Positions 8,070 to 56,053 of a stretch of DNA of 60,825 nt are shown here, one piece after another (position 1 is the first letter of the stretch; every line of letters begins with the position of its first letter). The stretch is from the IMG/VR virus record IMGVR_UViG_3300033142_000461, positions 1 through 60,825 of that record; one strand, given 5' to 3'. The position numbers and the translations under genes are program-made. Origin of the DNA: a virus. Under the pieces are notes generated by a model, which was not told where the DNA came from, made no database searches, and saw only the letters and a list, made by a program, of their open reading frames with translations.

Positions 8070-8411
8070 ATGAAGACATATAAGGAATTCCTTGCGGAAG
8101 CAAAATTAGCAGAAGAACAATCTTACAAAGAGTTTTTCACAGCCGCACTAAAGAAGTTTGGTGTAACAGAGCCAGACCAACTGGAAGGTGACAAGAAGAA
8201 GGAATTCTTTGATTATGTGGATGCGAATTGGGAAGGCGAGAACGAAGTTGACGAAGCAGCTAAATGTGACGATGACGAAGAACTGACCGAAGAAGACGAT
8301 GACAAAGAAGAAAAGTCTGATGATGACGATGATGATTCGGAAGACAAAGAAGAAAAGTCTGATGATGACGATTCAGAAGATGATGACGAAGAAAAAGAAG
8401 ACAAAGAATAA
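8070..8411 (+). CDS. acidic prohead core / internal head protein with capsid-targeting sequence
   Basis: A 113-residue protein that begins MKTYKEFLAEA, almost identical to the capsid-targeting leader of T4 IPIII (MKTYQEFIAEA), with L-A-E/A cleavage after residue 10. Residues 20-55 (EFFTAALKKFGVTEP and KKKEFFDYVDANW) form a helical domain. The C-terminal third is nearly all D, E, S and K, like acidic prohead core proteins. It closes the first transcription block just before a terminator. Confidence 0.65.
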   Translation: MKTYKEFLAEAKLAEEQSYKEFFTAALKKFGVTEPDQLEGDKKKEFFDYVDANWEGENEVDEAAKCDDDEELTEEDDDKEEKSDDDDDDSEDKEEKSDDDDSEDDDEEKEDKE

Positions 8412-14969: not shown

Positions 14970-15635
14970 ATGAATAACATGAGACTTATATCAGAAGAGT
15001 TAAGAGAAGGTCTAAAGGTAGACTCTGTACTTAACGAAGAAACAGGCAAGAAAGAACTATACATTAAAGGTATCTTTCTTCAACAAGAACAAAAGAATCG
15101 TAACGGGCGTGTATATCCTGCTGCGGTAATGGAAGGCGCAGTTAAGTCTTACATTGATGAATACGTTACAACAAAACGCGCAATTGGTGAACTAAATCAT
15201 CCTACGTCACCAGTTGTTAACCCTGCAAACGCTTCACACCTTATCACAAACATTGTACAAGAAGGTAACAACTATATTGGTACCGCAAAGATTCTTGATA
15301 CTCCTATGGGACAGATTGTTCGTGGTCTTGTAGAAGGTGGCGTCCAACTTGGTGTTTCATCAAGAGGTGTTGGTTCTCTTAAAGAAGAGAATGGCGTAAA
15401 CGTTGTACAGAACGACTTCAAAATGTTCACTGTGGACGTAGTTGGTGACCCTAGTGCTACAGATGCATGGGTTAACGGTATCTACGAAAGTGCAGAGTGG
15501 GTATGGGATAACGGCGCTTTAGTCGAACACGAAGTCCAACAAATTGTTGATATTATGGAACAAAGTCCAGTCGATAATACAGAGGCCCAAATTAAGGCCT
15601 TCTCTACTTTTATGAGCTTAATCAAAGCAAAATAA
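14970..15635 (+). CDS. 21: prohead maturation protease gp21
   Basis: A 221-residue serine protease of the T4 gp21 (S78) family. Conserved blocks are YIKGIFLQQEQKNRNGRVYP, GELNHPT with His77, and GVSSRGVGSL with the catalytic serine at residue 130 or 131. It cleaves core and capsid proteins after L/I-x-E during head maturation. Its presence makes the many N-terminal L/I-x-E sites elsewhere in this window meaningful. An AAAGGAAATG ribosome site overlaps the start. Confidence 0.96.
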   Translation: MNNMRLISEELREGLKVDSVLNEETGKKELYIKGIFLQQEQKNRNGRVYPAAVMEGAVKSYIDEYVTTKRAIGELNHPTSPVVNPANASHLITNIVQEGNNYIGTAKILDTPMGQIVRGLVEGGVQLGVSSRGVGSLKEENGVNVVQNDFKMFTVDVVGDPSATDAWVNGIYESAEWVWDNGALVEHEVQQIVDIMEQSPVDNTEAQIKAFSTFMSLIKAK

Positions 15636-15715: not shown

Positions 15716-16657
15716 ATGACGATGTACAAATGCCCTGACTGCGATAGTTCTACTATGGAACTCAAAGAGGACGTTCACGTTTGTCCTGAGTGCCAAAAGT
15801 CATTAACTCTTGACGAAGCCGTTGAGTTGTTTGACAAAGGCGAACTTATTGCAATCTCAGAAGAGCTAGATACAAAAGAAGAAATCAAAGATGTTGACCT
15901 TAAAGTCAATATCGCTGAAGATTTCAAATCTCTTGTAGATGGCGAAGAACTCTCAGAAGAGTTCCAAAAGAAAGCTGCGACAATCTTTGAATCTGTTGTT
16001 AACCAAAAGGTTGCAGAGATCAATGGTGTCTTTGAACAGAAACTTGAGAAAGCGCAAGCTGAATCAGAAAAAACCCTTGAAGAAGCAAAAGTAGAATATC
16101 AATCAGAACTTGAAACTAAAGTTGATGATTATCTTGACTACGTTGTAACTGAGTGGATGGAAGCAAACGAACTCGCTATCGAGAACGGTGCTAGAACAGA
16201 AATTACAGAAGGTTTCATTGATGGTATGAAGGCTCTCTTTGCAGAAGCTTACATTGATGTACCAGAAGATCGTTTTGATGTTGTTGGCGACCTTGCAGAA
16301 AAAGTTGAGTCTCTTGAAAAAGAACTTGATAGCAAGATTGACGAAAGCATTGCAGCGAAGAAGAAATTGGAAGAGTCGTATTCAGTAATGGTCTTTAGCG
16401 AGATTGTTGAAGGTATGGCAGACACCGAAGTTGAGAAGTTTAAGGAGATTGCTGAAAGTGTCGCATTTGACGACATCGAAAGTTATCAAGAGAAGCTGAC
16501 GACTCTAAAGGAAAACTTTTTCAAGAAAGAAATCACAGAAGATGTGGAAATCCTTGAAGAAGTCATTGTCGAGGATGACAAAATTGATGACGTTGACGAT
16601 AAGAAAGACACAAGTACTTCTTACGAAGACGCAATCAGAGCGGCTCTCGCTAAATAA
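15716..16657 (+). CDS. 22: major prohead scaffold gp22 with N-terminal zinc ribbon
   Basis: A 313-residue acidic helical scaffold between genes 21 and 23. Residues about 65-290 are a long coiled-coil-like E/K-rich rod, as expected of gp22. The N-terminus carries CPDC (Cys6, Cys9) and CPEC (Cys23, Cys26), a zinc-ribbon signature I do not know from T4 gp22. The C-terminus (SYEDAIRAALAK) looks like the capsid-binding end of scaffolds. A GGAG lies 11 nt upstream of the ATG. Identity rests on position and composition, and is strong. Confidence 0.88.
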   Translation: MTMYKCPDCDSSTMELKEDVHVCPECQKSLTLDEAVELFDKGELIAISEELDTKEEIKDVDLKVNIAEDFKSLVDGEELSEEFQKKAATIFESVVNQKVAEINGVFEQKLEKAQAESEKTLEEAKVEYQSELETKVDDYLDYVVTEWMEANELAIENGARTEITEGFIDGMKALFAEAYIDVPEDRFDVVGDLAEKVESLEKELDSKIDESIAAKKKLEESYSVMVFSEIVEGMADTEVEKFKEIAESVAFDDIESYQEKLTTLKENFFKKEITEDVEILEEVIVEDDKIDDVDDKKDTSTSYEDAIRAALAK

Positions 16658-16691: not shown

Positions 16692-18014
16692 ATGCAAAAC
16701 ACAATCTTAACAGAAGATGTGAAGAAGTCATGGGAGCCAATCCTTAACGAATCTTCACTACCTGAAATCAAAGACGCAACGGTTCGTAATACTGTTATGC
16801 GCCTTCTTGAAAACACAAAAGCGGAACTTAACGAAGCTGCAACTACTATTGCTGCTGACGGTACTTCTACAAACGGTGCTGCTGACAACTATGACCCAGT
16901 TCTTATCAAACTGATTCGTAGAACTATGCCTTCTATCATTGCACATGATATTATCGGCGTACAACCAATGTCAGGTCCTACTGGTCTTGTCTTCTCTATG
17001 GCGGCTGAGTATGTAGATGGCGGTGCTGAGGCATTCGGCGTTGACGCTCCTGTTGACCAAGGTAAGAACACTACCACCGAAGCTGAATTGCTTGGTGCAG
17101 ATACAGAAATCACTGCTGCAAACAACGATGGTTCTGGTACTGCTGCACTTCCAGTAACACAAGTATCTCCTTGGAAAGAAATGACCTTCAGCATCGAGAA
17201 AGCGCCAGTAGACGTTCAAACTCGCGCACTGAAAGGTACTTACACCCAAGAGCTTGCACAAGACCTTAAAGCAATTCATGGTATTGATGCAGAAACAGAA
17301 CTTGCTAACATCCTTGCTGGCGAACTTACTGCTGAAATCAATCGTGAGATGATTGCTCTTATCGATAACCAAGCGATTATCACTCCTGTTACTGACTGGC
17401 GTGGTGGTGGAGCTGGTACTGCTCCTTTAGGTACTGAACTTATGACTGTTGGTGAATTCGACCTTGAAGCAGATACAGACGCTATCGGCGAGATTGACCA
17501 AATCAAGGCACTTATGTTGTTCTTGAACAATCAGTCTGCACGTATCGCTCGTGGTACTCGTAGAGGAATGGCGAACTGGATTATCACTTCTCCTTCTATC
17601 GCTGGTGCTCTTGAGACTGCTGGTAAAGTAGACGCGATTGCTAACTTCGGCGCAGTTTCAACTCCTGCTGATGTTGGTGTTACATATGCTGGTATCCTTA
17701 ATGGCCGTTACAAGCTGTTCATCGACCCATATATGGCAACAGATATCGTTTACATGGGTTACAAAGGTGCTTCTGCATATGATGCTGGTGCATACTACAG
17801 TCCATATGTTCCAATGAGTCTTATGAAGGCAGTTGGTGAGAACGACTTCCAACCTCGTATCGGATTCAAAACCCGTTATGGTCTTGCTGTTAACCCAATG
17901 GCAGTTGCGAAAGGTTCTCGTAACAACATCAGCATCTCTGATGCTACTAGTGCAGGTAATGTTGGCTATCACGCTAACCCTTACTTCCGTAAGTTCACCG
18001 TTCTAGGATTGTAA
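16692..18014 (+). CDS. 23: major capsid protein gp23
   Basis: A 440-residue capsid protein with typical gp23 blocks: PSIIAHDIIGVQPMSGPTGL, FSIEKAPVDVQTRALKGTYT, LAQDLKAIHGIDAETELANI and LARGTRRG-like ARGTRRGMANWIITS. The N-terminus ends in A-E-L-N-E/A, so gp21 should cut after Glu48 and release a short propeptide. Translation is followed by a hairpin terminator. Identity is certain from sequence and from its place after gene 22. Confidence 0.98.
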   Translation: MQNTILTEDVKKSWEPILNESSLPEIKDATVRNTVMRLLENTKAELNEAATTIAADGTSTNGAADNYDPVLIKLIRRTMPSIIAHDIIGVQPMSGPTGLVFSMAAEYVDGGAEAFGVDAPVDQGKNTTTEAELLGADTEITAANNDGSGTAALPVTQVSPWKEMTFSIEKAPVDVQTRALKGTYTQELAQDLKAIHGIDAETELANILAGELTAEINREMIALIDNQAIITPVTDWRGGGAGTAPLGTELMTVGEFDLEADTDAIGEIDQIKALMLFLNNQSARIARGTRRGMANWIITSPSIAGALETAGKVDAIANFGAVSTPADVGVTYAGILNGRYKLFIDPYMATDIVYMGYKGASAYDAGAYYSPYVPMSLMKAVGENDFQPRIGFKTRYGLAVNPMAVAKGSRNNISISDATSAGNVGYHANPYFRKFTVLGL

Positions 18015-18076: not shown

Positions 18077-18715
18077 CTATCGTTTTATATATTCTCTATG
18101 AGACTTGATAATATTTTTTATTCCAAATTTCTCAAATCTGTTTATACCATTTTTAAGTTCTGACATATAGCACATTATAGTTGTATCTTTTCTTCCGACA
18201 ATATCAACTATATAATCAAAACTAACAATCTCCTTATTTCCATTATTCCATTCTACTTCATAGAAGTTAACCTGATTGTTTTCTTTATTAAATTTCTTTT
18301 TAGATGAAGATATTTTCTTTTTATTATCGGCCGAACGTTTCTTTCCTTTCCAAGATTCTCCTAGTTTCGATGCCTGTTGTTTCAACTCTATAGTTCTTTC
18401 TCTACCCCAAATATCCTCAGCAAGCTTGCCCTTCTTTGATATAGACATCTTCTCTTTTGTTACTTCGGAGTGTTTACGTCCCAATATTCCCATATATCCG
18501 ACACACACACCGTCACCACGACAGCGGTGTATAGATTGGTGGTCGTCAGGATGCAAAGCGATAAGATTGGAAGGATGGTGAGAACCACCACAAGATATTG
18601 GTTTAATATGATGAACGTGATAACCTTCAGGAATAGACCATTCTGGATAGAATTGTCTCCAATAAATCTCAAGATTTTTACGATAGTTTGTTTTGGTATA
18701 AATAGATGTAAGCAT
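18077..18715 (-). CDS. HNH homing endonuclease with NUMOD3-like repeats
   Basis: A 212-residue protein on the minus strand, the only clear gene on that strand. Residues about 25-65 carry an HNH motif (YHVHHIKPISCGGSHHPSNL then ALHPDDHQSIH). Two NUMOD3-like DNA-binding segments follow (GRKHSEVTKEKMSISKKGK and GKKRSADNKKKISSSKK). It resembles free-standing T4 Mob-type endonucleases that spread by cutting alleles lacking them. The ATG at 18715 is preferred over 18721 because the GGAG at 18722-18725 is then 6 nt away. Confidence 0.9.
   Translation of the reverse strand: MLTSIYTKTNYRKNLEIYWRQFYPEWSIPEGYHVHHIKPISCGGSHHPSNLIALHPDDHQSIHRCRGDGVCVGYMGILGRKHSEVTKEKMSISKKGKLAEDIWGRERTIELKQQASKLGESWKGKKRSADNKKKISSSKKKFNKENNQVNFYEVEWNNGNKEIVSFDYIVDIVGRKDTTIMCYMSELKNGINRFEKFGIKNIIKSHREYIKR
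18697..18704 (+). promoter_or_regulatory. T4-type late promoter upstream of tube-like gene
   Basis: An exact plus-strand TATAAATA, located inside the 5' end of the minus-strand HNH gene and 120 nt before the next plus-strand gene. A hairpin terminator at 18750 lies between, so its usefulness for that gene is uncertain. Confidence 0.45.
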
Positions 18716-18749
18716 TGTCATACTCCAATATGTTAATGTTAGGATTGAG

Positions 18750-18823: not shown

Positions 18824-19288
18824 ATGAATGAAACTAGACAAAATAATTTTCTGTTGTCCTTTGGAAAACTACCAAACGTAACATATTATACACACACAAC
18901 AACTATACCAACAATGACGGTTGGTGAGGCCAATGTACCTAGTCCTGTATTAGACTATCCTATTCCAGGAGAAAAGATTACTTTCGAACCATTCTCATAT
19001 GAATTCAACGTTGACGAAAACTATGTTAACTACCTTGAAATATATGACTGGATGATGGAGATGGCCAATCCTGACTATAGGGATGATATTCCTGATGATA
19101 AGGATATGATGTCAGACGCAACATTAACAATTCTAAACAACCAGAACAATCCTATTATCAATGTACATTTCAAAGATGTGTGGCCTACTTCTCTTGGTGA
19201 TGTTCAATTAACCACACAAGCTTCTGAAATAATCACTTGTACGGTTACACTCACATATTCAAATTTTGTACTCGAAAATTTACGGTGA
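18824..19288 (+). CDS. tail-tube-like / baseplate tube-initiator-like protein
   Basis: A 154-residue protein with the tube-fold style pattern IPGEKITFEPFSYEFNVDEN followed by NYLEIYDWMMEMANPDYRDD and an Ig-like strand-rich end (EIITCTVTLTYSNF). The FEP-FxVDE-NY-W pattern resembles tube-related proteins (gp19 fold, as in T4 gp54-type initiators). It is distinct from the main tube protein encoded at 12285. The exact T4 counterpart is not certain. Confidence 0.5.
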   Translation: MNETRQNNFLLSFGKLPNVTYYTHTTTIPTMTVGEANVPSPVLDYPIPGEKITFEPFSYEFNVDENYVNYLEIYDWMMEMANPDYRDDIPDDKDMMSDATLTILNNQNNPIINVHFKDVWPTSLGDVQLTTQASEIITCTVTLTYSNFVLENLR

Positions 19289-27327: not shown

Positions 27328-27450
27328 GTCTGGCTTATATGCTAATAAGCACAATCATTTCAAATACTTACGAAATAGTGCTTTTAGTGGTTGACGGTGG
27401 TACCAATACCTGTATAATGATCCATATTGATTGAGATTGAGAGAGAAAAA
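27321..27450 (+). promoter_or_regulatory. early promoter cassette, copy B
   Basis: Palindrome GCTTAT-N6-ATAAGC (27333-27350), box ACAATCATTTCAAATACTTA, TTGACG (27391-27396), 16 bp, TATAAT (27413-27418), and leader ATTGAGATTGAGAGAG. It drives the VWA/zincin gene. Confidence 0.9.
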
Positions 27451-27451
27451 G

Positions 27452-29965
27452 ATGTCAAAAATGAATTTAGATTTGCTCGCGACTATCCTTGCTGAGGAGA
27501 ACATTACTGTTACTCGCAAGAATTGTAAGACAGCAAGTTTCGACCTTTTAAATCGTGTTCTTACTATCCCTAACACTAAAGACTTTTTTGAAGACTATGC
27601 ACAGATTGCTATGATTCTTCACGAAGTTGGTCATGCCCTTTATACGGATCTAGATCGTTACATGGAGATTGGTTCTTCAATTCAGAAACGATTCCCACAT
27701 GCTCGTATGTTGTGTAACATTCTTGAAGATGTTCGAATTGAGAAAAAGATTCGTGCGAAGTTTAAGGGTGCTGCGTCTTTCTTATACAAGACTAACAAAG
27801 AACTTTTCGACAATGACTGGTTCGGTACTCCTGAGATGGTTGCTGATTACGGTCTCCTTGATCTGATCAATGTTCACTACAAAGTTGGTCCTATGTCAAC
27901 TATCAAACTTCCTGAGTCAGGTAATGAACTCATCAAGTTAGTTGAAAACATGGACACTATGGATGATCTTGAAGACACTTGTGAAGCGTTTGTTGAACAA
28001 TACGAAAAAGAGAAAGAACAAGAACAACCTCAAGAGCCAATGCGCGCTGAGGATGAAGAGAACGAAGACGACCAGTTAGAAGATGATTCTCAAGATGATG
28101 ATGATTCTGATACAGATGAACCAGAAGAAAATCAATCAATGCCTGATTTTCCTACTGATGATGAAGAAGATGATTCGGATGATTCTGGTGATTCTGTCGA
28201 TGATGATGATTCTGATGAGTGTGAAGACGGTGAATCAGATTCGGATGATTCTGGTGATTCTGTCGATGATGAATCTCCTGATGAGGACGATGATTCGGCA
28301 AAGGTTGATGATTCTGATGCCGAAGACGAAACTACCGATGAAGAGTCTGAACTTGATAAGACCGAAGGTGATAGTGATGATGAGTCTGAGGAAGACGAAC
28401 TTGAAGACGAACACAAGGCTGATGAGTTAAATGATGGCCGTGAAGGTTCGGTTGATATCGGTACTGGCGAGTCTCAAGAATCATACGATGAGAATTTTGA
28501 TGAGGCGATTGACTTTGAAGAAAATTCAAATGAACCGAAACGATTCACTGTTCATACTCGAATTCCTTCTTATAAAGAATTTGTTGCCTCTGGTAACATT
28601 GTAGAATATAAAGATGTTATCAATGCAAACTGGTGTCCTTCTAAAGGTCACCCAGCTCCTACCAAAGAACAAATCGATTCAAATTATAAAATTAGTGATT
28701 ACACTATTACTTATATTAAAGATGAATACAATCGTCTTTCTGAGGCTTTTGTTCCTTTTAAATCTTCACTTAAAAGTACTGTCGCTCAAATGGTTAATGA
28801 ATTTGAACGTTCAAAGACTGCCGATGTTCGTAGTCGTACTAAAGTTCACAAGACTGGTAAGCTTGATGTTACTCGCCTTCACAACCACAAAGTTTCTGAT
28901 AACATTTTCCTGAAACGTGAGACTGTGAAAGAAGGCAAGAATCACGGTATCGTTATGATGATTGATGCTTCTATTTCAATGCGTGACAAAATTCAAGAGA
29001 TGATGAAACAGGTAATCACTACCGCGTTATTTGCTAGAAAGGTTAATATTCCTTTTGAGGCATATACTTTCACTACTCCTGAATTGCCTGTTGAACCTAT
29101 CGATGAAGGTTATGAAGAGATTAGTAAAAAAGGTCTCTATCATATGTCTGGTAATTATGTTCGTGGTAGAGTAGCCCAAGTTCTTTCTTCCGAGATGAAC
29201 AATAAAGATTGGAATGATGCACTGTTTCAACTCTATATGTTTGGTTTCGAAACAAAAGTACTTACTAAAGATGAATTTGCTAACAGTGATTTCTATGAAC
29301 TTGGTGGTACTCCTCTTTATCAAGCATCGATGATGTCTATTTCTATCGTTGAACGTTTTATCGAGAGATACAATGTACAGATTCCATCACTTCTGTTAAT
29401 GACTGACGGTGCTGGTACTAGTCCTAAGATTGGTTACGATTGGAATATTACCGAACATGTTAACTCTTATGATATCATTTCTAGTGTTGTGGACATTGAT
29501 ACTAATAAGACCTACAAGATTTCAGATATTAACAAAGAGATTGTGAAAAGCGACCGATGGGGACACACCCAACGTTATGTTGATACCTTTAGTCGTTATC
29601 ATGTTGCCCTTGAAATTCTTAAGCAACGTGTTCCTGAAATCAACCTGATTGGTTATTTCATTGTTGCTACTAAGAGAGATACACAAGACTTCAAAAAGTG
29701 TTTCAATACTACTACCGAGAAAGTTACAATGGGCAACATCAAGAAAAGCGGTGTTCTCGCTGGTAACGCGATTGGTTATGATGAGATGTTCATCATTTAC
29801 GGCGTTAGTCTTGAAGATGAGTCTGCTGATATTGAAGACCAACTTGAAGGTGTTAAAAAGGGTTCTTACAAATACAAGCAACTCCTTATGCAACAACTCC
29901 AGACTGGAAACTCTTCAAAGAATCTGGTCAAGAAAGTTGTTGAGGTCATTTCAACCGCAGCTTAG
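27452..29965 (+). CDS. VWA-domain protein with HExxH motif (CobT-like)
   Basis: An 837-residue protein. A zincin-like HEVGH lies at residues 57-61. A very acidic D/E/S tract spans about residues 190-365. A von Willebrand A domain follows, with MIDAS motifs DASIS near residue 504 and MTDGAG near residue 650. It resembles CobT-type proteins, which work with MoxR/CobS-type AAA+ partners, and such an ATPase is the next gene. The role could be a chaperone or remodelling factor rather than cobalt chelation. A tiny GATG start is 10 nt after GAGAGAG. Confidence 0.85.
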   Translation: MSKMNLDLLATILAEENITVTRKNCKTASFDLLNRVLTIPNTKDFFEDYAQIAMILHEVGHALYTDLDRYMEIGSSIQKRFPHARMLCNILEDVRIEKKIRAKFKGAASFLYKTNKELFDNDWFGTPEMVADYGLLDLINVHYKVGPMSTIKLPESGNELIKLVENMDTMDDLEDTCEAFVEQYEKEKEQEQPQEPMRAEDEENEDDQLEDDSQDDDDSDTDEPEENQSMPDFPTDDEEDDSDDSGDSVDDDDSDECEDGESDSDDSGDSVDDESPDEDDDSAKVDDSDAEDETTDEESELDKTEGDSDDESEEDELEDEHKADELNDGREGSVDIGTGESQESYDENFDEAIDFEENSNEPKRFTVHTRIPSYKEFVASGNIVEYKDVINANWCPSKGHPAPTKEQIDSNYKISDYTITYIKDEYNRLSEAFVPFKSSLKSTVAQMVNEFERSKTADVRSRTKVHKTGKLDVTRLHNHKVSDNIFLKRETVKEGKNHGIVMMIDASISMRDKIQEMMKQVITTALFARKVNIPFEAYTFTTPELPVEPIDEGYEEISKKGLYHMSGNYVRGRVAQVLSSEMNNKDWNDALFQLYMFGFETKVLTKDEFANSDFYELGGTPLYQASMMSISIVERFIERYNVQIPSLLLMTDGAGTSPKIGYDWNITEHVNSYDIISSVVDIDTNKTYKISDINKEIVKSDRWGHTQRYVDTFSRYHVALEILKQRVPEINLIGYFIVATKRDTQDFKKCFNTTTEKVTMGNIKKSGVLAGNAIGYDEMFIIYGVSLEDESADIEDQLEGVKKGSYKYKQLLMQQLQTGNSSKNLVKKVVEVISTAA
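28172..28272 (+). repeat. 35-bp direct repeat in the acidic tract
   Basis: A 35-bp stretch beginning GATTCGGATGATTCTGG occurs at 28172-28206 and again, identical, at 28238-28272. It encodes repeated SDDSGDSVDD and suggests expansion by slippage or recombination. Confidence 0.85.
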
Positions 29966-46239: not shown

Positions 46240-46532
46240 TTGAATTTTTAATAGTAGCTCTCGTAACAGTAATTGCATTTGCCGCTTTTTATGTTCTTGT
46301 GGCATGGCTTGCGGTATGTGTATTTGGACTACTTCCGGGTTTAGATTGTAAAGAGATAAGAAGATTATATAAGGAACACAAAATGAAAGAATCAAAGAAA
46401 AAGACATCATACTTTGTTAAGCCTATCGGTAAAAAGTATTTCTTAGAGGTATCAAAAGAGGTATATGACTCTAAAGGAGATAAAGAGGGTATCATCTCTC
46501 GCGCGGTGCCATGTCCTAGGACAGAACTATAA
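46236..46532 (+). CDS. small membrane protein
   Basis: A 98-residue protein with a long hydrophobic N-terminus, about residues 4-33, and a lysine-rich cytoplasmic-like tail (KEHKMKESKKKTSYF). Its stop codon lies inside a TATAAATA late promoter. It is the end of the cassette E operon. Confidence 0.55.
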   Translation: MIEFLIVALVTVIAFAAFYVLVAWLAVCVFGLLPGLDCKEIRRLYKEHKMKESKKKTSYFVKPIGKKYFLEVSKEVYDSKGDKEGIISRAVPCPRTEL

Positions 46533-46535
46533 ATA
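46528..46535 (+). promoter_or_regulatory. T4-type late promoter for a capsid-targeted gene
   Basis: An exact TATAAATA that includes the stop codon of the previous gene and lies 32 nt before a gene with a capsid-targeting leader. Late timing suits a packaged protein. Confidence 0.8.
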
Positions 46536-46566: not shown

Positions 46567-46779
46567 ATGAAAACAATAAAAGATTTATTAACAGAAGCAA
46601 AATGGCCTGATGTAAAAGGTTGGAAAGTTTCTGTTTTCAACACCGGCGCAAGATACACCAAAGGCAATGTATCTGTTTTGTTTGATGAGTTCGGTTACGT
46701 TATAGATGAAAAAGGTAAGAAAGAGAAAGAGGTCAAACTGAATAAGGCTGACCCATCAAAGATTTTGAAAAAGTTTTAG
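46567..46779 (+). CDS. capsid-targeted internal head protein
   Basis: A 70-residue protein beginning MKTIKDLLTEA, a T4-type capsid-targeting leader with L-T-E/A cleavage after residue 10. The mature part (DVKGWKVSVFNTGARYTKG then VSVLFDEFGYVIDEKGKK) is homologous by eye to the second half of the protein encoded at 54663. It is preceded by a late promoter. It would be packaged in the head and possibly injected. Confidence 0.7.
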   Translation: MKTIKDLLTEAKWPDVKGWKVSVFNTGARYTKGNVSVLFDEFGYVIDEKGKKEKEVKLNKADPSKILKKF

Positions 46780-48190: not shown

Positions 48191-49189
48191 ATGAACAAAA
48201 AATTTAACACCGCTGTGGTGATCGGTAGATTTCAGATACCGCACAAAGCACACGCCGAACTAATCAAATACGCAAGTGAAGTTGCTGATGAGGTTTTAGT
48301 CCTTATTGGTTCAACAAACCAACCGCGTACATTCAAAAATCCTTTCACATACGCCGAACGAGTTATGATGCTCGATGGGTCTGTTCAACGTCCAAGTATC
48401 ACCTATCGTGGTATCGAAGACCGTTCATACAACATTCAACAATGGCTGACGGCCGTTCGTAAAGTTATCGATACGAATACTACCGGTAAAGTTGTTCTTG
48501 TTGGACACCACAAAGATGAAAGTTCATTCTACCTTGATATGTTTCCAGAAATGGCAACAGATGAGTTTCCAAATGTAGATGACCTGAATTCCACCTCTAT
48601 TCGTACCGAGTATTTTGAATTCGGTACAATCTCTGTCGTACTGCCAAGTGCTGTTCGTTCTTTCCTAAAGAAATTCAAAGATACAGACGACTACAAAAAT
48701 CTGTGCGAAGAACAACAATTCATACAGTCTTACAAGTCAGCTTGGTCTAAAGCACCATACGCACCTACATTCGTTACTACCGATGCTGTTGTCATTCAAT
48801 CGGGTCACATTCTACTTGTTAAACGCAAGGCGAATCCCGGCAAAGGCCTATGGGCACTTCCTGGCGGATTCGTTAATCAGGATGAGACACTACAAGATTC
48901 TATGATTCGTGAACTTAGAGAAGAAACAAAGATCAAGGTACCTGTACCTGTTCTTGAGGGACACATTAGGTTTTCTCAAGTGTTTGATTCTCCTGAACGT
49001 TCACTTAGAGGTCGTACAATTACAACTGCTTATCTCATTGAACTGCCGCCGGGAAAACTTCCAAAGGTTGTTGGTTCTGATGATGCAGAAAAGGCAAAGT
49101 GGACTCCATTGAACGATGTATTCAATATGCGTAATCGTCTATACGAAGACCATGCTGATATTATTATTAAAATGACTGGAGGTATCTGA
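48191..49189 (+). CDS. natV: bifunctional NMN adenylyltransferase / Nudix hydrolase
   Basis: A 332-residue protein. The N-terminal adenylyltransferase has VVIGRFQIPHKAHAELI (HxGH-like KAHA), IGSTNQPRTFKNPFTYAERV and an ISSTxxR-like LNSTSIRTEYF. The C-terminal Nudix box is GGFVNQDETLQDSMIRELRE plus ETKI. It joins NMN to ATP to make NAD+ and can hydrolyse ADP-ribose-type compounds. With nadV two genes on it forms the NAD+ salvage pair known from Vibrio phage KVP40. CACGGAGGGTTTCC is the ribosome site. Confidence 0.95.
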   Translation: MNKKFNTAVVIGRFQIPHKAHAELIKYASEVADEVLVLIGSTNQPRTFKNPFTYAERVMMLDGSVQRPSITYRGIEDRSYNIQQWLTAVRKVIDTNTTGKVVLVGHHKDESSFYLDMFPEMATDEFPNVDDLNSTSIRTEYFEFGTISVVLPSAVRSFLKKFKDTDDYKNLCEEQQFIQSYKSAWSKAPYAPTFVTTDAVVIQSGHILLVKRKANPGKGLWALPGGFVNQDETLQDSMIRELREETKIKVPVPVLEGHIRFSQVFDSPERSLRGRTITTAYLIELPPGKLPKVVGSDDAEKAKWTPLNDVFNMRNRLYEDHADIIIKMTGGI

Positions 49190-49190
49190 T

Positions 49191-49433
49191 ATGATTAACA
49201 ATATGAATACCGATTCTCTAATTCGACAAACTGTTAAACGTTTACAATCTCTTGAAAGACAGATGCTGAGCGAACAACAGTTTATTAAAAATGAAGTATG
49301 TGAATTTGATGCTGTAGGTATGTCCTTTGCTATTCAACAAATTCACGACATAACAACCAAGTATGAACGGAGACTTGTTGACTCCGATGGTGTTAATATC
49401 ACCATGAACTATGGCAACAACCAAAAAGACTGA
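49191..49433 (+). CDS. hypothetical protein between NAD+ salvage genes
   Basis: An 80-residue helical protein (DSLIRQTVKRLQSLERQMLS, then IQQIHDITTKYERR) starting 1 nt after the adenylyltransferase stop. No family is recognised. It may be an accessory of the pathway, by position only. Confidence 0.6.
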   Translation: MINNMNTDSLIRQTVKRLQSLERQMLSEQQFIKNEVCEFDAVGMSFAIQQIHDITTKYERRLVDSDGVNITMNYGNNQKD

Positions 49434-49476
49434 TAGACGGTCTTTATTTTAAACTATAACATAGGGGTACTATGAT

Positions 49477-50862
49477 ATGAATACACAAAATTACAACCCA
49501 ATAGCGGATACCGATTCTTACAAGCCATCACAATGGCTTCAATATCCTCCAGGAACAGAATACATCTACTCATACGTTGAGAGTCGTGGTGGAGAATACG
49601 ATAAAACTGTATTCTTTGGACTACAGATGTTCATCAAGCAATATCTGTCTGTTCAGATTAAACCATGGATGATTGAAGAGGCCGCTGAGATGTTCAAAGC
49701 ACACGGCATTCCATTCAACAGAGAAGGCTGGGAATATATCGTCAATGAACTTGATGGTAAGATTCCTCTTGAAATCAAAGCAGTACCGGAAGGAACTGTT
49801 GTTGACACCAAGAATGTACTTGCGACCGTTGTGAATACAGACCCAAAATGTTTCTGGGTGACCTCATACTTTGAGACTGCTATTCTACGTGCGATTTGGT
49901 ATCCAACAACTGTAGCAACACAGTCAAAGATTGTGAAGAACAAAATCTCTATCGCAATGGACATCTCTTCTGATGACATCGAGAAAGCAGGTCTTGCCTT
50001 CAAACTGCACGACTTTGGTGCTCGCGGTGTTAGTTCAATGGAGAGCGCCGCTATCGGTGGTCTTGCTCACCTTGTGAACTTCATGGGCACTGATACTATC
50101 TCCGCTCTGATTGCAGGACGTAGATTCTACAATGCACCTATGGCTGGATTCTCTATCCCTGCGACTGAACACAGTACCATTACCTCATGGGGTAAGGATG
50201 GCGAAGAGAAAGCATACAGAAACTTTGTAGAACAATATGGTGGAACATACCCTATCATTGCTTGTGTTATTGATTCATACAATGACCGAAACGCTGTTGA
50301 TAATATCATCGGAAACAGAATGAAGGAAATGATTCTGCAATCTGGTTCTATGTTCGTTGCTCGACCTGATAGTGGTGACCCTGTTGAGGTTGTTATCGAC
50401 ATTCTCAAATCGCTGTGGAAATCATACGGCGGAGAAATCAACAACAAAGGATACAAGGTGCTTGATAATGTTCGCGTTATTCAAGGCGATGGTATCAACC
50501 CTACCTCTCTTGGTCAGATTGTTGATGCAGTTATCGAGAATGGTTTCTCTATCGACAACGTTGCTTTTGGTATGGGTGGCGGTCTTCTGCAACAAGTAGA
50601 CCGTGATACTCAACAGTTTGCTATGAAGTGTTCCGCTATCAAGGTTGGTGATGAATGGAGAGATGTATTCAAGACACCTGTTGGTGACCAGAGTAAGGCA
50701 TCTAAGAAAGGTATTCTTTCTCTGAACCTCAACGATGGCAAGTATCAAACACTTCCATACTCCGTTGGTGCCGAAGGCGACCAGCTGAAAACAGTATTCC
50801 GTAATGGTGAACTGATTCGTGAATATGACTTTGACGAAGTTCGCGCAAATTCAAACAAATAG
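49477..50862 (+). CDS. nadV: nicotinamide phosphoribosyltransferase NadV
   Basis: A 461-residue enzyme. Typical blocks are ADTDSYKPSQWLQYPPGTEY, YVESRGGEYDKTVFFGLQ, LHDFGARGVSSMESAAIGG, ATEHSTITSWGKDGE, VARPDSGDPVEVV and GDGINPTSLGQIVD. It converts nicotinamide and PRPP to NMN, the substrate of the adenylyltransferase encoded upstream. Length matches the family. Confidence 0.97.
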   Translation: MNTQNYNPIADTDSYKPSQWLQYPPGTEYIYSYVESRGGEYDKTVFFGLQMFIKQYLSVQIKPWMIEEAAEMFKAHGIPFNREGWEYIVNELDGKIPLEIKAVPEGTVVDTKNVLATVVNTDPKCFWVTSYFETAILRAIWYPTTVATQSKIVKNKISIAMDISSDDIEKAGLAFKLHDFGARGVSSMESAAIGGLAHLVNFMGTDTISALIAGRRFYNAPMAGFSIPATEHSTITSWGKDGEEKAYRNFVEQYGGTYPIIACVIDSYNDRNAVDNIIGNRMKEMILQSGSMFVARPDSGDPVEVVIDILKSLWKSYGGEINNKGYKVLDNVRVIQGDGINPTSLGQIVDAVIENGFSIDNVAFGMGGGLLQQVDRDTQQFAMKCSAIKVGDEWRDVFKTPVGDQSKASKKGILSLNLNDGKYQTLPYSVGAEGDQLKTVFRNGELIREYDFDEVRANSNK

Positions 50863-50873
50863 GAGAGAATAGT

Positions 50874-51074
50874 ATGACTGTTGTAATTGTGGACGAAAAA
50901 CCTGACTATAGTGTTATCAAGAGAGTCATTTGTAATAACTGTGGTATCAAATTGGAGTATACTCCAGATGATGTTACAAAGGAATCAAGAATGGATTACA
51001 CCGGTTCTAGTGATACATATAGTTTCATTAACTGTCCGAAGTGCAAGAAAGACATTACTGTATCTGTTCGATAG
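50874..51074 (+). CDS. small zinc ribbon protein
   Basis: A 66-residue protein with CNNCG and CPKCK pairs separated by ~32 residues, a likely four-cysteine zinc ribbon. TAGGAGAGAATAGT is the ribosome site. It lies between nadV and the radical-SAM gene. Function unknown. Confidence 0.65.
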   Translation: MTVVIVDEKPDYSVIKRVICNNCGIKLEYTPDDVTKESRMDYTGSSDTYSFINCPKCKKDITVSVR

Positions 51075-51083
51075 GAGATTATT

Positions 51084-51878
51084 ATGTTTGAAGAATGTAC
51101 AAGTAAGTCATTCGCTAACGGTAAAGTATACCTGCTTAAGGATGAGCAGGGTTACCCTATCGAAGTTACCGATACGTTTCTACCTTTCTACACAAAGGAT
51201 GCTGTAGGAAAGAATCAGAACGCCTTGGAAGATTATGACCTTGGTTCAAGAGATGAACGATGGATGGTAGGTGTTTCTACTATGAGCGGTTGTCCTGTAC
51301 GATGCAAGTTCTGTGCCACAGGCAAACTCAGAAAATCGAGAATGTTGACCGCTGGTGAGATTGTCAGACAAGTCGAGTTCGTTTTGGATAAGAATTTCTG
51401 TAAGATTCCTTCTGATGCTAAAGAGTTCAAGATTAACTATACCCGCATGGGAGAACCTTTCTTGAATATCGAGGCAGTTAAACAAGCAATCGATATCATC
51501 GATGAACGATATGGTGCTGAGAATGTTCATCACTATGTCAGCACTATTGGTATCGAAGGTGCCGACTTTAGTTGGATTAAAGAGAATGTAACCCTTCAAT
51601 TCAGTGTACACTCCTTTGATGAAGAGTATCGTGATTGGTTAATTCCTTATCGTAAAAAGATGAAAGTTTCTGAAATGGGTGATGTCAGAACTGATAGTAA
51701 ACTAAAGACCACCTTGAATATGACTATGCTTAGAGAAGAGGACTTTGATATTGTCAAGATGAAGCAATACTTTGACCCCAAAGAGTTCTTTATTAAGATT
51801 AGTCCTGTGAACCCAAACGATGTTGCTGAAGAGAATGGCATCTCGGATGGAATTATAACTCAACAAAACCTTGTATAG
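51084..51878 (+). CDS. RlmN/Cfr-like radical SAM protein
   Basis: A 264-residue radical-SAM enzyme with the cluster motif GCPVRCKFCATG (Cys70, Cys74, Cys77) and RMGEPFLNIEAVKQAI, both typical of the RlmN/Cfr methyltransferase branch. It is over 100 residues shorter than bacterial RlmN. I see no clear counterpart of the catalytic C-terminal cysteine near the end, so another reaction is possible. It is followed by a tiny gene and belongs to the NAD+ salvage block. Confidence 0.8.
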   Translation: MFEECTSKSFANGKVYLLKDEQGYPIEVTDTFLPFYTKDAVGKNQNALEDYDLGSRDERWMVGVSTMSGCPVRCKFCATGKLRKSRMLTAGEIVRQVEFVLDKNFCKIPSDAKEFKINYTRMGEPFLNIEAVKQAIDIIDERYGAENVHHYVSTIGIEGADFSWIKENVTLQFSVHSFDEEYRDWLIPYRKKMKVSEMGDVRTDSKLKTTLNMTMLREEDFDIVKMKQYFDPKEFFIKISPVNPNDVAEENGISDGIITQQNLV

Positions 51879-52029: not shown

Positions 52030-52032
52030 TTA

Positions 52033-52060
52033 AAATGCTCCCTTTATTGGGGGCATTTTT
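52033..52060 (+). terminator. rho-independent terminator after NAD+ block
   Basis: AATGCTCCC-TTTATT-GGGGGCATT stem followed by TTTGTTT. It closes the NAD+/radical-SAM transcript. Confidence 0.85.
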
Positions 52061-52070
52061 GTTTGTACTG

Positions 52071-52078
52071 TATAAATA
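52071..52078 (+). promoter_or_regulatory. T4-type late promoter
   Basis: Exact TATAAATA just after the terminator and upstream of early cassette F. It could drive the deoxyribonucleotidase gene and the capsid-targeted cluster late in infection. Confidence 0.75.
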
Positions 52079-52080
52079 TA

Positions 52081-52158
52081 ACTTATACCCATATAGAAAA
52101 CTTATGTGCTTAAGTGGTTGACTCCATTGGTCATACCTGTATAATTGGTACTTAACTG
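52081..52158 (+). promoter_or_regulatory. early promoter cassette, copy F (divergent)
   Basis: CTTATACCCATATAGAAA box, TTGACT (52118-52123), 16 bp, TATAAT (52140-52145). The leader lacks the TTGAGAGAG element, so this copy is the most diverged. Confidence 0.8.
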
Positions 52159-52173
52159 TGAGAACAAGAACAA

Positions 52174-52665
52174 ATGACGAAAATTAAAACTGTGTACCTT
52201 GATATGGACGGCGTTCTGGCTGACTTTGTTGCCGGATATAACAACATTTATGGTACGTTCAAGGAAGGCGATGTGGTGAGTGACGATTTCAAAGAGGGGT
52301 TCGCAAAGGACAACTTCTTCCGTTTCTTGCCTTTGATGCCGAACGCTAAGAAACTTGTGAAACTTCTTGAGACATATGATGTCAATATCGAGATTCTAAC
52401 CTCGGTTGGCAAATTCAACTCAAAAGATGTATCGGTTGACAAAGTAATGTGGCTCAAGAAGCACTTCCCACAATTAGTGTCAAAATTCAACTACGTGACT
52501 AAGAGTAATGACAAGGCCAGATGGGCCTCGGAAGACACTCTTCTTGTTGATGACCGTATCAAGTGTGTTGTCCCTTTTGAGAAGAAAGGCGGCAACGTGA
52601 TCCTATATAAGGCAAAGTCTTTCAGCGCAAATGCCAAGACTATCGATAAATTACTGAATAAATAA
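52174..52665 (+). CDS. 5'(3')-deoxyribonucleotidase-like HAD phosphatase
   Basis: A 163-residue HAD protein. Motif I is YLDMDGVLADF with Asp10 and Asp12, motif II-like EILTSVGK, and motif IV TLLVDDRIKC. This matches small 5' nucleotidases (NT5C type) found in phages. It would dephosphorylate nucleoside monophosphates. It is under early cassette F. Confidence 0.85.
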   Translation: MTKIKTVYLDMDGVLADFVAGYNNIYGTFKEGDVVSDDFKEGFAKDNFFRFLPLMPNAKKLVKLLETYDVNIEILTSVGKFNSKDVSVDKVMWLKKHFPQLVSKFNYVTKSNDKARWASEDTLLVDDRIKCVVPFEKKGGNVILYKAKSFSANAKTIDKLLNK

Positions 52666-52692: not shown

Positions 52693-52899
52693 ATGAGTAA
52701 AACAATTCAAGAATATTTGAACGAGGCATACGATGTCAAGTTCAAAGGTAAAGATACAACAATGGAAGTCAACTCGACTGTCCGTTCACTAATGTTCACC
52801 ATCAAAGACAAGAAAGGTGATATCCTTGGCTTTCATATGATCAAGGGTAAAGAAATCAAAGAACTACTAAAATACATCGATGACGAAATCGTTCTGTAG
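52693..52899 (+). CDS. capsid-targeted internal protein, cluster member 1
   Basis: A 68-residue protein beginning MSKTIQEYLNEA, with L-N-E/A cleavage after residue 11. The mature domain (VNSTVRSLMFTIKDKKGDIL) is a small beta-alpha fold. A TAAGGGTATATCT ribosome site precedes it. Its TAG overlaps the next GTG. It opens a run of consecutive head-targeted genes. Confidence 0.65.
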   Translation: MSKTIQEYLNEAYDVKFKGKDTTMEVNSTVRSLMFTIKDKKGDILGFHMIKGKEIKELLKYIDDEIVL

Positions 52900-53192
52900 T
52901 GAAATCATTCAAACAACATCTCAATGAAAAGATGAAGTGGGAACAGAAGTGGTACAAACACATGTACACTAATGTCCATTCTCCTAAACCACAAAAGATA
53001 TACTCTTATCATTCTCCTGATGGTAGATTCGATATTACCATATCCGGCGATTCCCCTACAGGTGTGCATAAACCAAACGATAAAAGAACTTATTGGATGG
53101 TGTGGGATAACGAGAATAAGAAACCTGGTATGGCTACAACATTCACAACCTATAAAAAGGCAATGAAGGCTGTAGAGGATAGATATTACTAG
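52899..53192 (+). CDS. capsid-targeted internal protein, cluster member 2
   Basis: A 97-residue protein starting at GTG (TAGTG overlap), beginning MKSFKQHLNEKMKW with an L-N-E/K site. The mature part has SYHSPDGRFDITISGD and KRTYWMVWDNENKKPG, a beta-rich domain. No family is recognised. Lys after the cut site departs from the A/S/G consensus. Confidence 0.6.
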   Translation: MKSFKQHLNEKMKWEQKWYKHMYTNVHSPKPQKIYSYHSPDGRFDITISGDSPTGVHKPNDKRTYWMVWDNENKKPGMATTFTTYKKAMKAVEDRYY

Positions 53193-53818
53193 TGTTAAAA
53201 TTTAAACAGTACATCTCTGAGAAGATATACAACTCACACAATATGGACTATAGTGTCCTTATGGGTGAGATAGTTGATGCTTCAAAGAAACTCGGTACAA
53301 CCTCTATTATATATAGGGGTTTTTCTACATCCGGCGCTGGCGGAATGATGAAGGTTACCAATGAACGAGAGGGATTCTATGGCTCACTTGATGACAACGC
53401 AAAACAATTACTTAAACAACTCGGTGTTAAGAATCCATACTTCGCGACCCGCAGCAAACTCAAAGCGGGTATGTTTGGTTCTGTCTACATCTTGGTACCC
53501 TCTGGCAAATTCTCTGCATATCAATCAAAATCCCACAGCGACCTGTTATCCGGATTCAGAGATACCGATGATGATATCAATACTATCGCAAAGACGTACC
53601 AGAAAACTCTGAAATCTGTTAACGATATGGAAATAATCTTTGATGGTAAAGAATACTATTTGATTGATATTGGTTGGGTCTTGAATAACATAGACCGTGG
53701 TAACAAGTTTCAGAAGTTTACCAAGGATAAGATAAATACATACAAAGATTTATACAATGCCCTTAAAAGTATTAAGTCATTCTATGATTGGAAAGAAAAA
53801 CAAAGAGAAAAGAAATGA
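53192..53818 (+). CDS. capsid-targeted protein, possible ADP-ribosyltransferase-like domain
   Basis: A 208-residue protein starting at GTG (TAGTG overlap), beginning MLKFKQYISEKIYN with I-S-E/K. The body has TSIIYRGFSTS with Arg42, YFATRSKLKAGMFGSVYILV and MEIIFDGKEYYLIDIGW. Arg, STS and a late Glu-containing strand recall the R-S-E class of ADP-ribosyltransferases, such as T4 Alt, which is packaged and injected. The E-x-E motif is not clear, so this is tentative. Confidence 0.5.
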   Translation: MLKFKQYISEKIYNSHNMDYSVLMGEIVDASKKLGTTSIIYRGFSTSGAGGMMKVTNEREGFYGSLDDNAKQLLKQLGVKNPYFATRSKLKAGMFGSVYILVPSGKFSAYQSKSHSDLLSGFRDTDDDINTIAKTYQKTLKSVNDMEIIFDGKEYYLIDIGWVLNNIDRGNKFQKFTKDKINTYKDLYNALKSIKSFYDWKEKQREKK

Positions 53819-54117
53819 AGTCATTTAAAACATTCAATGAGGCTGCAAAGGACGAATATAGTCTATATCATGATAGTCTCACGTCCGCTGTTCAAGAAGT
53901 TGAACGATTTGTGCAACGTAAAGGGTTCTCTATGGACGATGAAGAAGCCGCTGAGAGAATTGGTCTAGGTCCACGTAAACCTTCTAAAGGTAAGACAAAC
54001 AAGTACACATTGACTCTATACAAGAATGGTAAAGAACAACGCAAGGCGATTCATTTCCAAGTCTATAATCGTGGTACCAACAACAATACCTACGAACTCA
54101 ACGCTTACATTTCATAG
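53815..54117 (+). CDS. capsid-targeted internal protein, cluster member 4
   Basis: A 100-residue protein beginning MKSFKTFNEAAKDE. The ATG at 53815 overlaps the previous stop (ATGA) and begins exactly at the leader, so an in-frame TTG upstream is rejected. The mature domain has FVQRKGFSMDDEEAAERIGL and NKYTLTLYKNGKEQRKA, a basic domain seen in other phages without known function. Confidence 0.6.
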   Translation: MKSFKTFNEAAKDEYSLYHDSLTSAVQEVERFVQRKGFSMDDEEAAERIGLGPRKPSKGKTNKYTLTLYKNGKEQRKAIHFQVYNRGTNNNTYELNAYIS

Positions 54118-54126
54118 GATATCACG

Positions 54127-54375
54127 ATGAAAACAGTTAAAGAATTCTTGGCCGAAGGCAAATATCAACAACAATGGAAAAGAAAACCTATCAAGGTAGG
54201 TAAACTAGAACTTGTTGTTAATGATAATGACGTACACTCCATTGTTAAGAATGGAAAAGAAGTAGCGACATTTGCTTTCGACTCTGGTAGTGATTCGTTT
54301 TGGGTAACAGACAAAACAAAGAAAGGTCAGACATCATATGAAACAATTGACGATATAGTAAAGGCATACAAATGA
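54127..54375 (+). CDS. capsid-targeted internal protein, cluster member 5
   Basis: An 82-residue protein beginning MKTVKEFLAEGK with L-A-E/G cleavage after residue 10. The mature domain (GKLELVVNDNDVHSIVKNGK then SFWVTDKTKKGQTSYET) looks like a small strand-rich fold ending in a helix. It overlaps the next gene by ATGA. Confidence 0.65.
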   Translation: MKTVKEFLAEGKYQQQWKRKPIKVGKLELVVNDNDVHSIVKNGKEVATFAFDSGSDSFWVTDKTKKGQTSYETIDDIVKAYK

Positions 54376-54662
54376 AAACAGTAAAAGAATTTCTATCAGA
54401 AGCTGAAACTAAAGAGGATGTTGTATACCTATTCGTAGGGAAAAATCATCCCGGTTTGAGTGTATCGCCAGGAAAATACAAGATTGTGAATATAGTTAAA
54501 AAGTCTTCAAAGTTGTTTGAGGTAGAATTCAAGGCGAAAGGAAAATCAATATATTTTGATTCTGATGGGTCATTACCAAAAACACTAAAGATTAAGAACG
54601 GAGCAAATATGCCTGTTGGCATTGTAATGGCGCTTGGTATCTTGGAAAGGAGTATCAAATAA
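54372..54662 (+). CDS. capsid-targeted internal protein, cluster member 6
   Basis: A 96-residue protein beginning MKTVKEFLSEAETK with L-S-E/A cleavage after residue 10. The leader is nearly identical at DNA level to those of members 5 and of the gene at 2371. The mature part (VVYLFVGKNHPGLSVSPGKY) is strand-rich. No family is recognised. Confidence 0.65.
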   Translation: MKTVKEFLSEAETKEDVVYLFVGKNHPGLSVSPGKYKIVNIVKKSSKLFEVEFKAKGKSIYFDSDGSLPKTLKIKNGANMPVGIVMALGILERSIK

Positions 54663-55163
54663 ATGAAATCATTCAAACAGTATAACGAGGCCAAATTTGA
54701 TGGCATCAGCGGCGGAGAGAAAAATAATCCACTAAAGACTAAAAAGAAACTTGTTGTTAAAGTTGATGGATCTGATATTTTTGTTCCCTTAGATGATGAT
54801 GGTTTATGGTATCTACATACAGACGGAAAAGAACATTTCGGCGCAAATGCAAGACACAGTACAGGATATTTCAAAACAAAATCAGCTGCACAATCAGCAA
54901 TAAAGAAATATCAGAAATCTGGTATAAATGAGGCCAAAAGTAAACTATCCGTTGCATACGATGTAAAGGGATGGGAACTAGAGTTTGTAATGGGTGAACC
55001 TGTTTATATGAAGAAGAACAAAAAGGTTTCTGTGGCTTTTGATGACAACGGATATGTTGTTAGTAAGAAGAACAAGATGGGCAAATGGATTCATGGCGAA
55101 GCAGGTGTTCTACTTGGTAAAGGTGCCATTGATTTTGAAAAGGTTCTAAAAGGAATTAAATAG
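54663..55163 (+). CDS. two-part capsid-targeted protein (probable polyprotein)
   Basis: A 166-residue protein beginning MKSFKQYNEAKFDG. A second, perfect cleavage site I-N-E/A lies at residues 88-91. The part after it (SVAYDVKGWELEFVMG then KVSVAFDDNGYVVSKK) is homologous by eye to the mature domain of the head-targeted protein at 46567. gp21 could thus release two separate domains from one precursor. Its TAG overlaps the next GTG. Confidence 0.6.
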   Translation: MKSFKQYNEAKFDGISGGEKNNPLKTKKKLVVKVDGSDIFVPLDDDGLWYLHTDGKEHFGANARHSTGYFKTKSAAQSAIKKYQKSGINEAKSKLSVAYDVKGWELEFVMGEPVYMKKNKKVSVAFDDNGYVVSKKNKMGKWIHGEAGVLLGKGAIDFEKVLKGIK

Positions 55164-56053
55164 TGCATAGTTTCGAAGAATACATCACAACTCCTGAACA
55201 ACTTGACGAAAAGTTATTATTAATAAATCAAGGCAAACGTTACGGTCAGGTTGTGTTCCTTGCCGGCGGTGCTGGTTCAGGTAAAGGGTTTGCTTCTTCC
55301 AACTTTATGAACATTCACGACTACAAGGTACGTGATGTTGATGAAGTCAAGAGATTGTTCCTAAAAATCGCCAAAGAGAAGAACAAGTATCCAGAATTGA
55401 AAGGCCTGAACCTCAAGAATCCTAAAGATGTAAGCAAATTACATGACTTTATTGTTAAGATGGATTGGAAGAATAAGACAATGGGTAATATGATACAGCA
55501 GATGTCAAACCCTGAGACTCTTCCTAATATACTGTTTGATATAACATTGAAGAGACCATCATATGCGAATAAGGTTTTGCCTCAACTAATTGAACAAGGT
55601 TATAAACCAGAGAACATTCATCTTGTATGGGTTCTAACTGATTATAAGATTGCTGTACAACAGAACAGAGAAAGAGAACGTGTTGTACTTGATGATATAC
55701 TTCTTAATACACATGAAGGTGCTGCAAAGTCAATGTGGGATATTATCGGCAAAGGAAATTTACCAAAAGGTCTTAACGGCGGCATCTATGTCATTCTAAA
55801 CAACAAACAGAATACTATATTCTTCAAGAAAGATGATACAAAGGATTATCGCAAGTCGAAAGATGATGATTCAACAGAAGTCCGAAAAGGTTCTGGTTCA
55901 GGAAAGACGATCATTAAAGACTTCAAATATCTCGTCTACAAGAAACCGGGAAAGAAGGCTGAAACCTCAGCAAGAATCAAACTGCAACTATGGCAGTGGA
56001 TCACAACAAATATACCTATGACGAAAGACACCTCTACCATCTGGTGGTCGTAG
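55163..56053 (+). CDS. zeta-toxin-like P-loop kinase with capsid-targeting-like N-terminus
   Basis: A 296-residue protein starting at GTG (TAGTG). Walker A is LAGGAGSGKGF near residues 33-43, then RDVDEVKRLF and LVWVLTDYKIAVQQNRERER, the pattern of zeta-type kinases. The MHSFEEYITTPEQLDEK start resembles the cluster leaders but lacks a clean cut site. A basic linker precedes the C-terminus (KAETSARIKLQLWQWI). It may be an injected kinase; this is inference. Confidence 0.6.
   Translation: MHSFEEYITTPEQLDEKLLLINQGKRYGQVVFLAGGAGSGKGFASSNFMNIHDYKVRDVDEVKRLFLKIAKEKNKYPELKGLNLKNPKDVSKLHDFIVKMDWKNKTMGNMIQQMSNPETLPNILFDITLKRPSYANKVLPQLIEQGYKPENIHLVWVLTDYKIAVQQNRERERVVLDDILLNTHEGAAKSMWDIIGKGNLPKGLNGGIYVILNNKQNTIFFKKDDTKDYRKSKDDDSTEVRKGSGSGKTIIKDFKYLVYKKPGKKAETSARIKLQLWQWITTNIPMTKDTSTIWWS

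Follow-up and report, generated by a model that had tools for sequence, protein, structure and literature searches.

Why do eight consecutive genes with otherwise dissimilar products begin with nearly the same ten residues? These genes occupy positions 52693 to 56053 of a 60.8-kb fragment of an uncultured T4-like phage (IMG/VR record IMGVR_UViG_3300033142_000461; the whole stretch of 60,825 nucleotides is called the window here), and the initial annotation had likened their N termini to the capsid-targeting sequence (CTS) of the T4 internal protein IPIII. It is very probable, in our judgment, that these genes make up an operon encoding internal head proteins, which are CTS tagged, processed by a gp21-type protease, packaged in the head, and injected. 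In the proposed mechanism, each precursor would dock through its N-terminal CTS in the prohead core formed by the gp22-type scaffold. Cleavage by the gp21-type protease, directly behind the Glu located near residue 10, would then leave a mature protein, in most cases basic, that would remain in the head with the DNA until it is injected at infection. We infer packaging, cleavage, injection, and cargo function in this virus by analogy with T4, in which the mechanism of internal-protein targeting and processing is known (PMC9026906, PMC3012670, PMC12373910, PMC9391042).

Direct reading showed that all eight genes, which abut or overlap one another, carry a leader of the form M-K-[ST]-[FYV]-K-[EQT]-[FYH]-[LI]-x-E or a recognizable variant of it. 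All genes and elements described here lie on the plus strand unless stated otherwise, genes are named by their first position, and a slash marks the putative cut. The run begins with a 68-amino-acid product (52693 to 52899; MSKTIQEYLNE/A), the leader of which is one residue longer, with the CTS offset by one residue. It is followed by products of 97 amino acids (52899 to 53192; MKSFKQHLNE/K, with a GTG start that overlaps the previous stop), 208 amino acids (53192 to 53818; MLKFKQYISE/K), 100 amino acids (53815 to 54117; MKSFKTFNE/A), 82 amino acids (54127 to 54375; MKTVKEFLAE/G), 96 amino acids (54372 to 54662; MKTVKEFLSE/A), and 166 amino acids (54663 to 55163; MKSFKQYNE/A). The run closes with a 296-amino-acid zeta-toxin-like P-loop kinase (55163 to 56053), the divergent leader of which, MHSFEEYITTPEQLDE/K, has a displaced site. 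The predicted coordinates of the run held, except that the real start of the fourth gene is the ATG at 53815, within an open reading frame (ORF) that extends from 53788 to 54117. An L/I-x-E site near residue 10 had also been proposed; it is present at residue 10 or 11 in five of the eight leaders and absent from those of 53815 and 54663, which end in aromatic-N-E, and it is displaced in that of 55163.

Similar leaders are found outside the run, as had been predicted. Gene 46567 (46567 to 46779; 70 amino acids; MKTIKDLLTE/A) stands alone and adjoins a tRNA-Thr gene, gene 8070 (8070 to 8411; MKTYKEFLAE/A) lies beside the terminase genes, and the 246-amino-acid product of gene 7318 (7318 to 8058; GTG start; MLSFREFNE/D) has the aromatic-N-E ending and a second candidate site, YLNE/G. 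The fourth proposed copy, a small gene at 2371 to 2553, is a variant that retains the targeting half only (MKTVKEFIDGDMIVE/S), with no Glu at residue 10 and a possible site at residue 15; like the leader of 55163, it deviates from the CTS.

The leaders of the window exceed chance. A regular expression for the leader matched 9 of 101 window genes and none of 681 internal start codons, and when N-terminal residues were shuffled in 2,000 rounds the mean number of matches was 0.30 and the maximum was 4; the expression also detects T4 IPII and IPIII. Because it was composed after the window leaders were known and was therefore tuned on the window, we also applied the stricter rule derived from IPIII mutagenesis, namely, hydrophobic residues at positions 4 and 7, L or I at position 8, and E at position 10 (summarized in PMC9026906). 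This rule was satisfied by 6 of the 101 genes (8070, 46567, 52899, 53192, 54127, and 54372) and by 4 of the 681 internal starts. Furthermore, leader codons differ synonymously, as in GTT AAA GAA TTC TTG (54127) versus GTA AAA GAA TTT CTA (54372), which indicates that the peptide has been conserved and not that the DNA was recently copied.

The best new support for reading the leader as a packaging tag comes from virion mass spectrometry of cyanophage S-CREM2, which detected 52 proteins, including enzymes that the authors term nonstructural (PMC10665884). Virion proteins with such leaders include an S-adenosylmethionine (SAM) hydrolase (MKDFDSFLEE), an APH/ChoK-like kinase (MKRFDAFLTE), a cytidylyltransferase (MKNFSSFLTE), and the products of ORFs 13, 15, and 136; ORFs 13 to 15 adjoin one another. 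When the 210 S-CREM2 genes were ranked with a leader model trained on the window and T4 only, these six virion-detected proteins fell within the top nine. A text search of PMC10665884 found neither "capsid targeting" nor "internal protein." A cytidylyltransferase was also found in S-SM1 virions (Sullivan et al., PMC3037559), and S-H35 encodes an annotated cytidylyltransferase with the leader MKKFSAFLSE/A. As a separate observation, S-CREM2 ORF12 (L277, minus strand, 10313 to 7704), which was detected in virions and is annotated as a CRISPR-Cas9 nuclease, contains LRFASFMAEAA at approximately residues 17 to 27; its start is perhaps misannotated.

T4-type head genes, including those for a gp21 protease and a gp22 core, are present. 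Profile searches identified gp16, gp20, gp21, gp22, and gp23 in the window, which also encodes terminase genes. These include the gp21-type prohead protease expected to cut the leaders (14970 to 15635; phrog_207, E 9.5e-75), the gp22-type scaffold expected to be the docking partner (15716 to 16657; phrog_237, E 1e-63), and the gp23-type major capsid protein (16692 to 18014; phrog_138, E 1e-107), which is at most 42% identical to gp23 of Kyanoviridae and other T4-like phages.

The tag is not confined to this virus. Viral contigs contained at least 120 stretches that matched a degenerate DNA pattern for the leader and none that matched a scrambled pattern of similar makeup. The matches listed held 170 strictly tagged proteins, the bodies of which formed 77 families; these counts do not represent frequencies, since the contigs were picked by leader. 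Tagged genes were often clustered, with eight regular-expression hits in 14 kb, six of them adjacent, in one contig (L160) and six and five hits in two others (L193 and L254); the run of eight in the window is the longest among the matches listed. Pfam assignments among the tagged bodies included adenylate kinase, GNAT acetyltransferase, zeta/AAA_33 kinase, lytic transglycosylase, ART-PolyVal, HAD phosphatase, and DUF families. Of 20 larger contigs, comprising 19 from the leader scan and a related contig, L263, 10 had gp21 and 4 more had a gene for a DNA polymerase of the T4 type; a control for gp21 frequency, based on a neutral pattern, consisted of just seven contigs, mostly short, and was not used. 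In T4 itself, the hypothetical gene 61.1 (18966 to 19130) begins with MKTFKEFIKE, a near-perfect CTS, and from this sequence its product could be an unrecognized T4 internal protein.

The initial annotation had described the bodies behind the leader as different and the run as a modular cassette. Pairwise tests of the small bodies gave one clear relation, between the second half of 54663 and 46567 (z 10.2), and all other pairs had z values of 2.6 or less. The body shared by these two genes follows LLTE/AK in 46567 and the internal INE/AK of 54663, located after residue 90. That one cargo follows a leader in one gene and an internal INE/A in another suggests a processed precursor; 54663 is thus a possible two-cargo precursor, in which two cargos would share one tag with a second protease site between them. 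Likewise, the 53815 body, which follows FNE/AAK in the window, recurs in a 475-residue protein of phage Melnitz (L267, 17131 to 18519), where it starts right after MDE/AKS. For each of the two shared bodies, homology starts where the cut is predicted, which would be expected of a protease site that marks the border between modules, and the Melnitz protein is perhaps a polyprotein of head cargo. Most mature bodies are also basic, like those of the T4 internal proteins: 8 of the 10 tagged proteins computed had an isoelectric point (pI) of 9.1 to 9.7 (9.6, 9.4, and 9.7 for 52899, 53192, and 54372, respectively), compared with a median of 5.6 for small genes, the exceptions being 52693 (8.2) and the strongly acidic 8070 (4.1).

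The only confident functional match among the bodies of the run was that of the zeta-toxin-like kinase, assigned from its sequence; 55163 exceeded the curated cutoff of the Pfam family Zeta_toxin (PF06414; 28.6 versus 22.3 bits), and its relatives carry the leaders MLNFKQYLTE/A (G002/G003) and MKSFKQFTE (Klebsiella phage Matisse). The 54127 product weakly matched the "internal head protein" family phrog_2667 (E 2.3e-5, residues 1 to 65, the leader included), and none of the other tagged proteins was homologous to any internal protein family described so far. The 53192 product is a possible but unproven ADP-ribosyltransferase, suggested by motifs seen by eye; it had no Pfam ART match and no homologues in phages and viral contigs outside the same virus. 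Homologue searches with 53192, 54663, 54127, and the nucleotidase described below returned the same virus only or nothing, and PADLOC gave no defense-related match worth reporting. Alignment-free structure predictions of 53192 and 54663 were uninformative, with predicted local distance difference test scores (38.6 and 36.4, respectively) too low for a fold search.

The run forms one unit with an untagged 5'-3' deoxyribonucleotidase-like gene (52174 to 52665; phrog_2643, E 5e-35), which comes first, and the unit has its own promoter-like elements. It is set apart from the upstream gene by a terminator-like hairpin (52032 to 52059; an 11-pair stem and then a T-rich tail). The T4-type late-promoter consensus TATAAATA occurs at 52071 to 52078, 95 nucleotides 5' of the first gene, and again at 46528 to 46535, 31 nucleotides 5' of the tagged gene 46567; with 7 occurrences in the window versus 5.3 expected it is not overrepresented, so only its position is informative. 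An early-type promoter, TTGACT-N16-TATAAT (52118 to 52145), is one of nine TTGAC-N16-19-TATAAT elements in the window (at 23880, 27391, 30039, 37368, 41742, 42836, 52118, 56383, and 57506), compared with 0.31 expected. Most of the nine sit in repeated elements of approximately 70 to 130 bp, apparently a shared early-promoter module.

Directly 5' of this island, genes at 48191 to 51878 resemble, by eye, nicotinamide mononucleotide adenylyltransferase, nicotinamide phosphoribosyltransferase, and RlmN-like radical SAM genes. This block, with genes resembling those of nicotinamide adenine dinucleotide (NAD) salvage, recurs in L263, where the adjoining island carries other tagged genes. One has the leader MRFQNFLTE/S and looks by eye like a P-loop kinase, and the other has the leader MRTIQVINKYLTE/A. 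In such islands, cargo genes would be exchanged while the tag is retained. No diverged relative carrying the same run was found, and a sister contig that is 100% identical across 42 kb offers no independent comparison. Its identity with the window stops near the end of a minus-strand gene (18077 to 18721) that adjoins gp23 and appears by eye to be HNH homing endonuclease-like. Elsewhere in the window, the gene at 27431 to 29965 contains an acidic, D/E/S-rich repetitive stretch (28051 to 28339).

Other explanations for the shared leader must be considered. The tagged proteins might be scaffold or core components for head sizing and assembly, comparable to T4 gp67 and gp68 and to the role of IPIII, and not delivered effectors. 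Gene 8070 lies among the head genes, and its strongly acidic product is more like a core protein than like the internal proteins of T4; it is perhaps such a component instead of injected cargo. In addition, T4 IPIII mutants do have assembly defects. Parts of the assembly machinery should be conserved, however, yet the bodies of the run are mutually unrelated and nearly homologue free, and enzymes are found among many tagged bodies elsewhere; for these proteins in general, we consider an assembly role improbable. A somewhat stronger case, although still an unlikely one, can be made for duplication of a single internal-protein gene, with diverged paralogues as the bodies and a tag that would still be capsid targeting. 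Most of the bodies are small, and the second half of 54663 and 46567 are clear paralogues, but no other pair shows such a relation, the 53815 body also occurs within an unrelated larger protein of Melnitz, and the kinase comes from a separate enzyme family. It is scarcely credible that the common N terminus is unrelated to packaging and instead aids the translation or stability of proteins encoded by a coupled operon. The overlap of starts with previous stops and the several GTG starts are compatible with such a role, but leader codons vary synonymously, the conserved residues track the CTS positions, the scrambled-order pattern yields no matches, and the leader is also present on the scattered genes 7318, 8070, and 46567 and on many genes of other phages.

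Several points nevertheless weigh against the interpretation of the run as packaged and injected cargo. Cleavage is less certain for 53815 and 54663, which have no L or I before the x-E, and for the displaced site of the kinase. Packaging does not require the tag, since the regular expression misses T4 IPI and Alt, and 6 of the 20 larger contigs, all shorter than 50 kb, had none of the T4 hallmarks tried. For S-CREM2, the Fisher p values (0.0065 overall and 0.00027 after exclusion of known structural proteins) depend on a 4.9-bit cutoff that was picked post hoc, after the ranking was known, and p was 0.012 at 8 bits; moreover, detection in virions is no demonstration of cleavage or injection.

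In other phages, widely differing proteins carry this tag, which points to a delivery system that is both general and readable. We lean toward the broader proposal, with only modest conviction, that the leader is an address code of the T4 superfamily, the bearers of which are head loaded and injected, with a repertoire (kinases, ADP-ribosyltransferases, acetyltransferases, SAM hydrolase, nucleotidyltransferases, and defense inhibitors) that can be read from the sequences of uncultured phages and with some processed multicargo precursors. Likely roles of the cargos would be to block host restriction or other defenses and to modify host functions early, with the zeta-toxin-like kinase in this virus and the ADP-ribosyltransferase, acetyltransferase, and kinases of tagged relatives as candidate effectors; a counterdefense or takeover role is plausible by comparison with T4 Ip1 to Ip3 and Alt. 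If this proposal is true, a ten-residue tag predicts injected phage effectors genome-wide, provides, for uncultured T4-like phages, a ready list of candidates for counterdefense and takeover, and accounts for the enzymes without an obvious structural role in cyanophage virions, and what phages inject besides DNA becomes a directly testable question. In the open-license PMC literature, we found no description of a run this long, of cargo this broad, of a two-cargo precursor, or of the leader as the explanation for cyanophage virion enzymes; the run length, cargo breadth, two-cargo variant, and mass spectrometry link appear to be new.

The proposed system is reminiscent of several known ones. 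In the giant phages SPN3US and phiKZ, ejection proteins are likewise head proteins whose propeptides are cut by a gp21-related protease before ejection; descriptions in the literature set them apart by their different propeptides and cleavage motifs (PMC9026906, PMC5694885). The virion-associated enzymes of S-CREM2 share the CTS-like leaders, including those of the neighboring ORFs 13 to 15, and virion presence, but their cargo differs (PMC10665884). T4 Alt is a head-packaged, gp21-processed, and injected ADP-ribosyltransferase; unlike the window leaders, however, its propeptide is short and does not match, and the enzymatic identity of 53192 is unproven. At the ip loci of T-even phages, where at least 10 ip genes occur according to Repoila et al. 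(1994) as cited in PMC12373910, cargo similarly turns over at fixed loci while the tag is retained, whereas the window belongs to another, uncultured T4-like lineage and its island adjoins NAD-salvage-like and nucleotidase genes. One tag on many unrelated bodies, the core of the earlier interpretation, is well supported by the leader statistics, the 77 body families, the cargo shared by two contexts, the differing tagged genes of the L263 island, and the tagged enzymes of S-CREM2 virions, but 8070 looks like a core protein, and a tag with variable cargo is already established for T-even phages. The closest likeness is to T4 IPI, IPII, and IPIII, which have a ten-residue leader, hydrophobic residues at positions 4 and 7, an L/I-x-E cut by gp21, unrelated small basic bodies, and variable loci. 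T4 Ip1 to Ip3, which are known to be injected and to act in the host, share the leader alone and inhibit different GmrSD restriction enzymes (PMC12373910), and IPIII without its CTS functions when produced inside the host (PMC9391042). Unlike the T4 set, the window has a run of eight genes plus several elsewhere, some aromatic-N-E leaders, a possible two-cargo precursor, and a kinase cargo.

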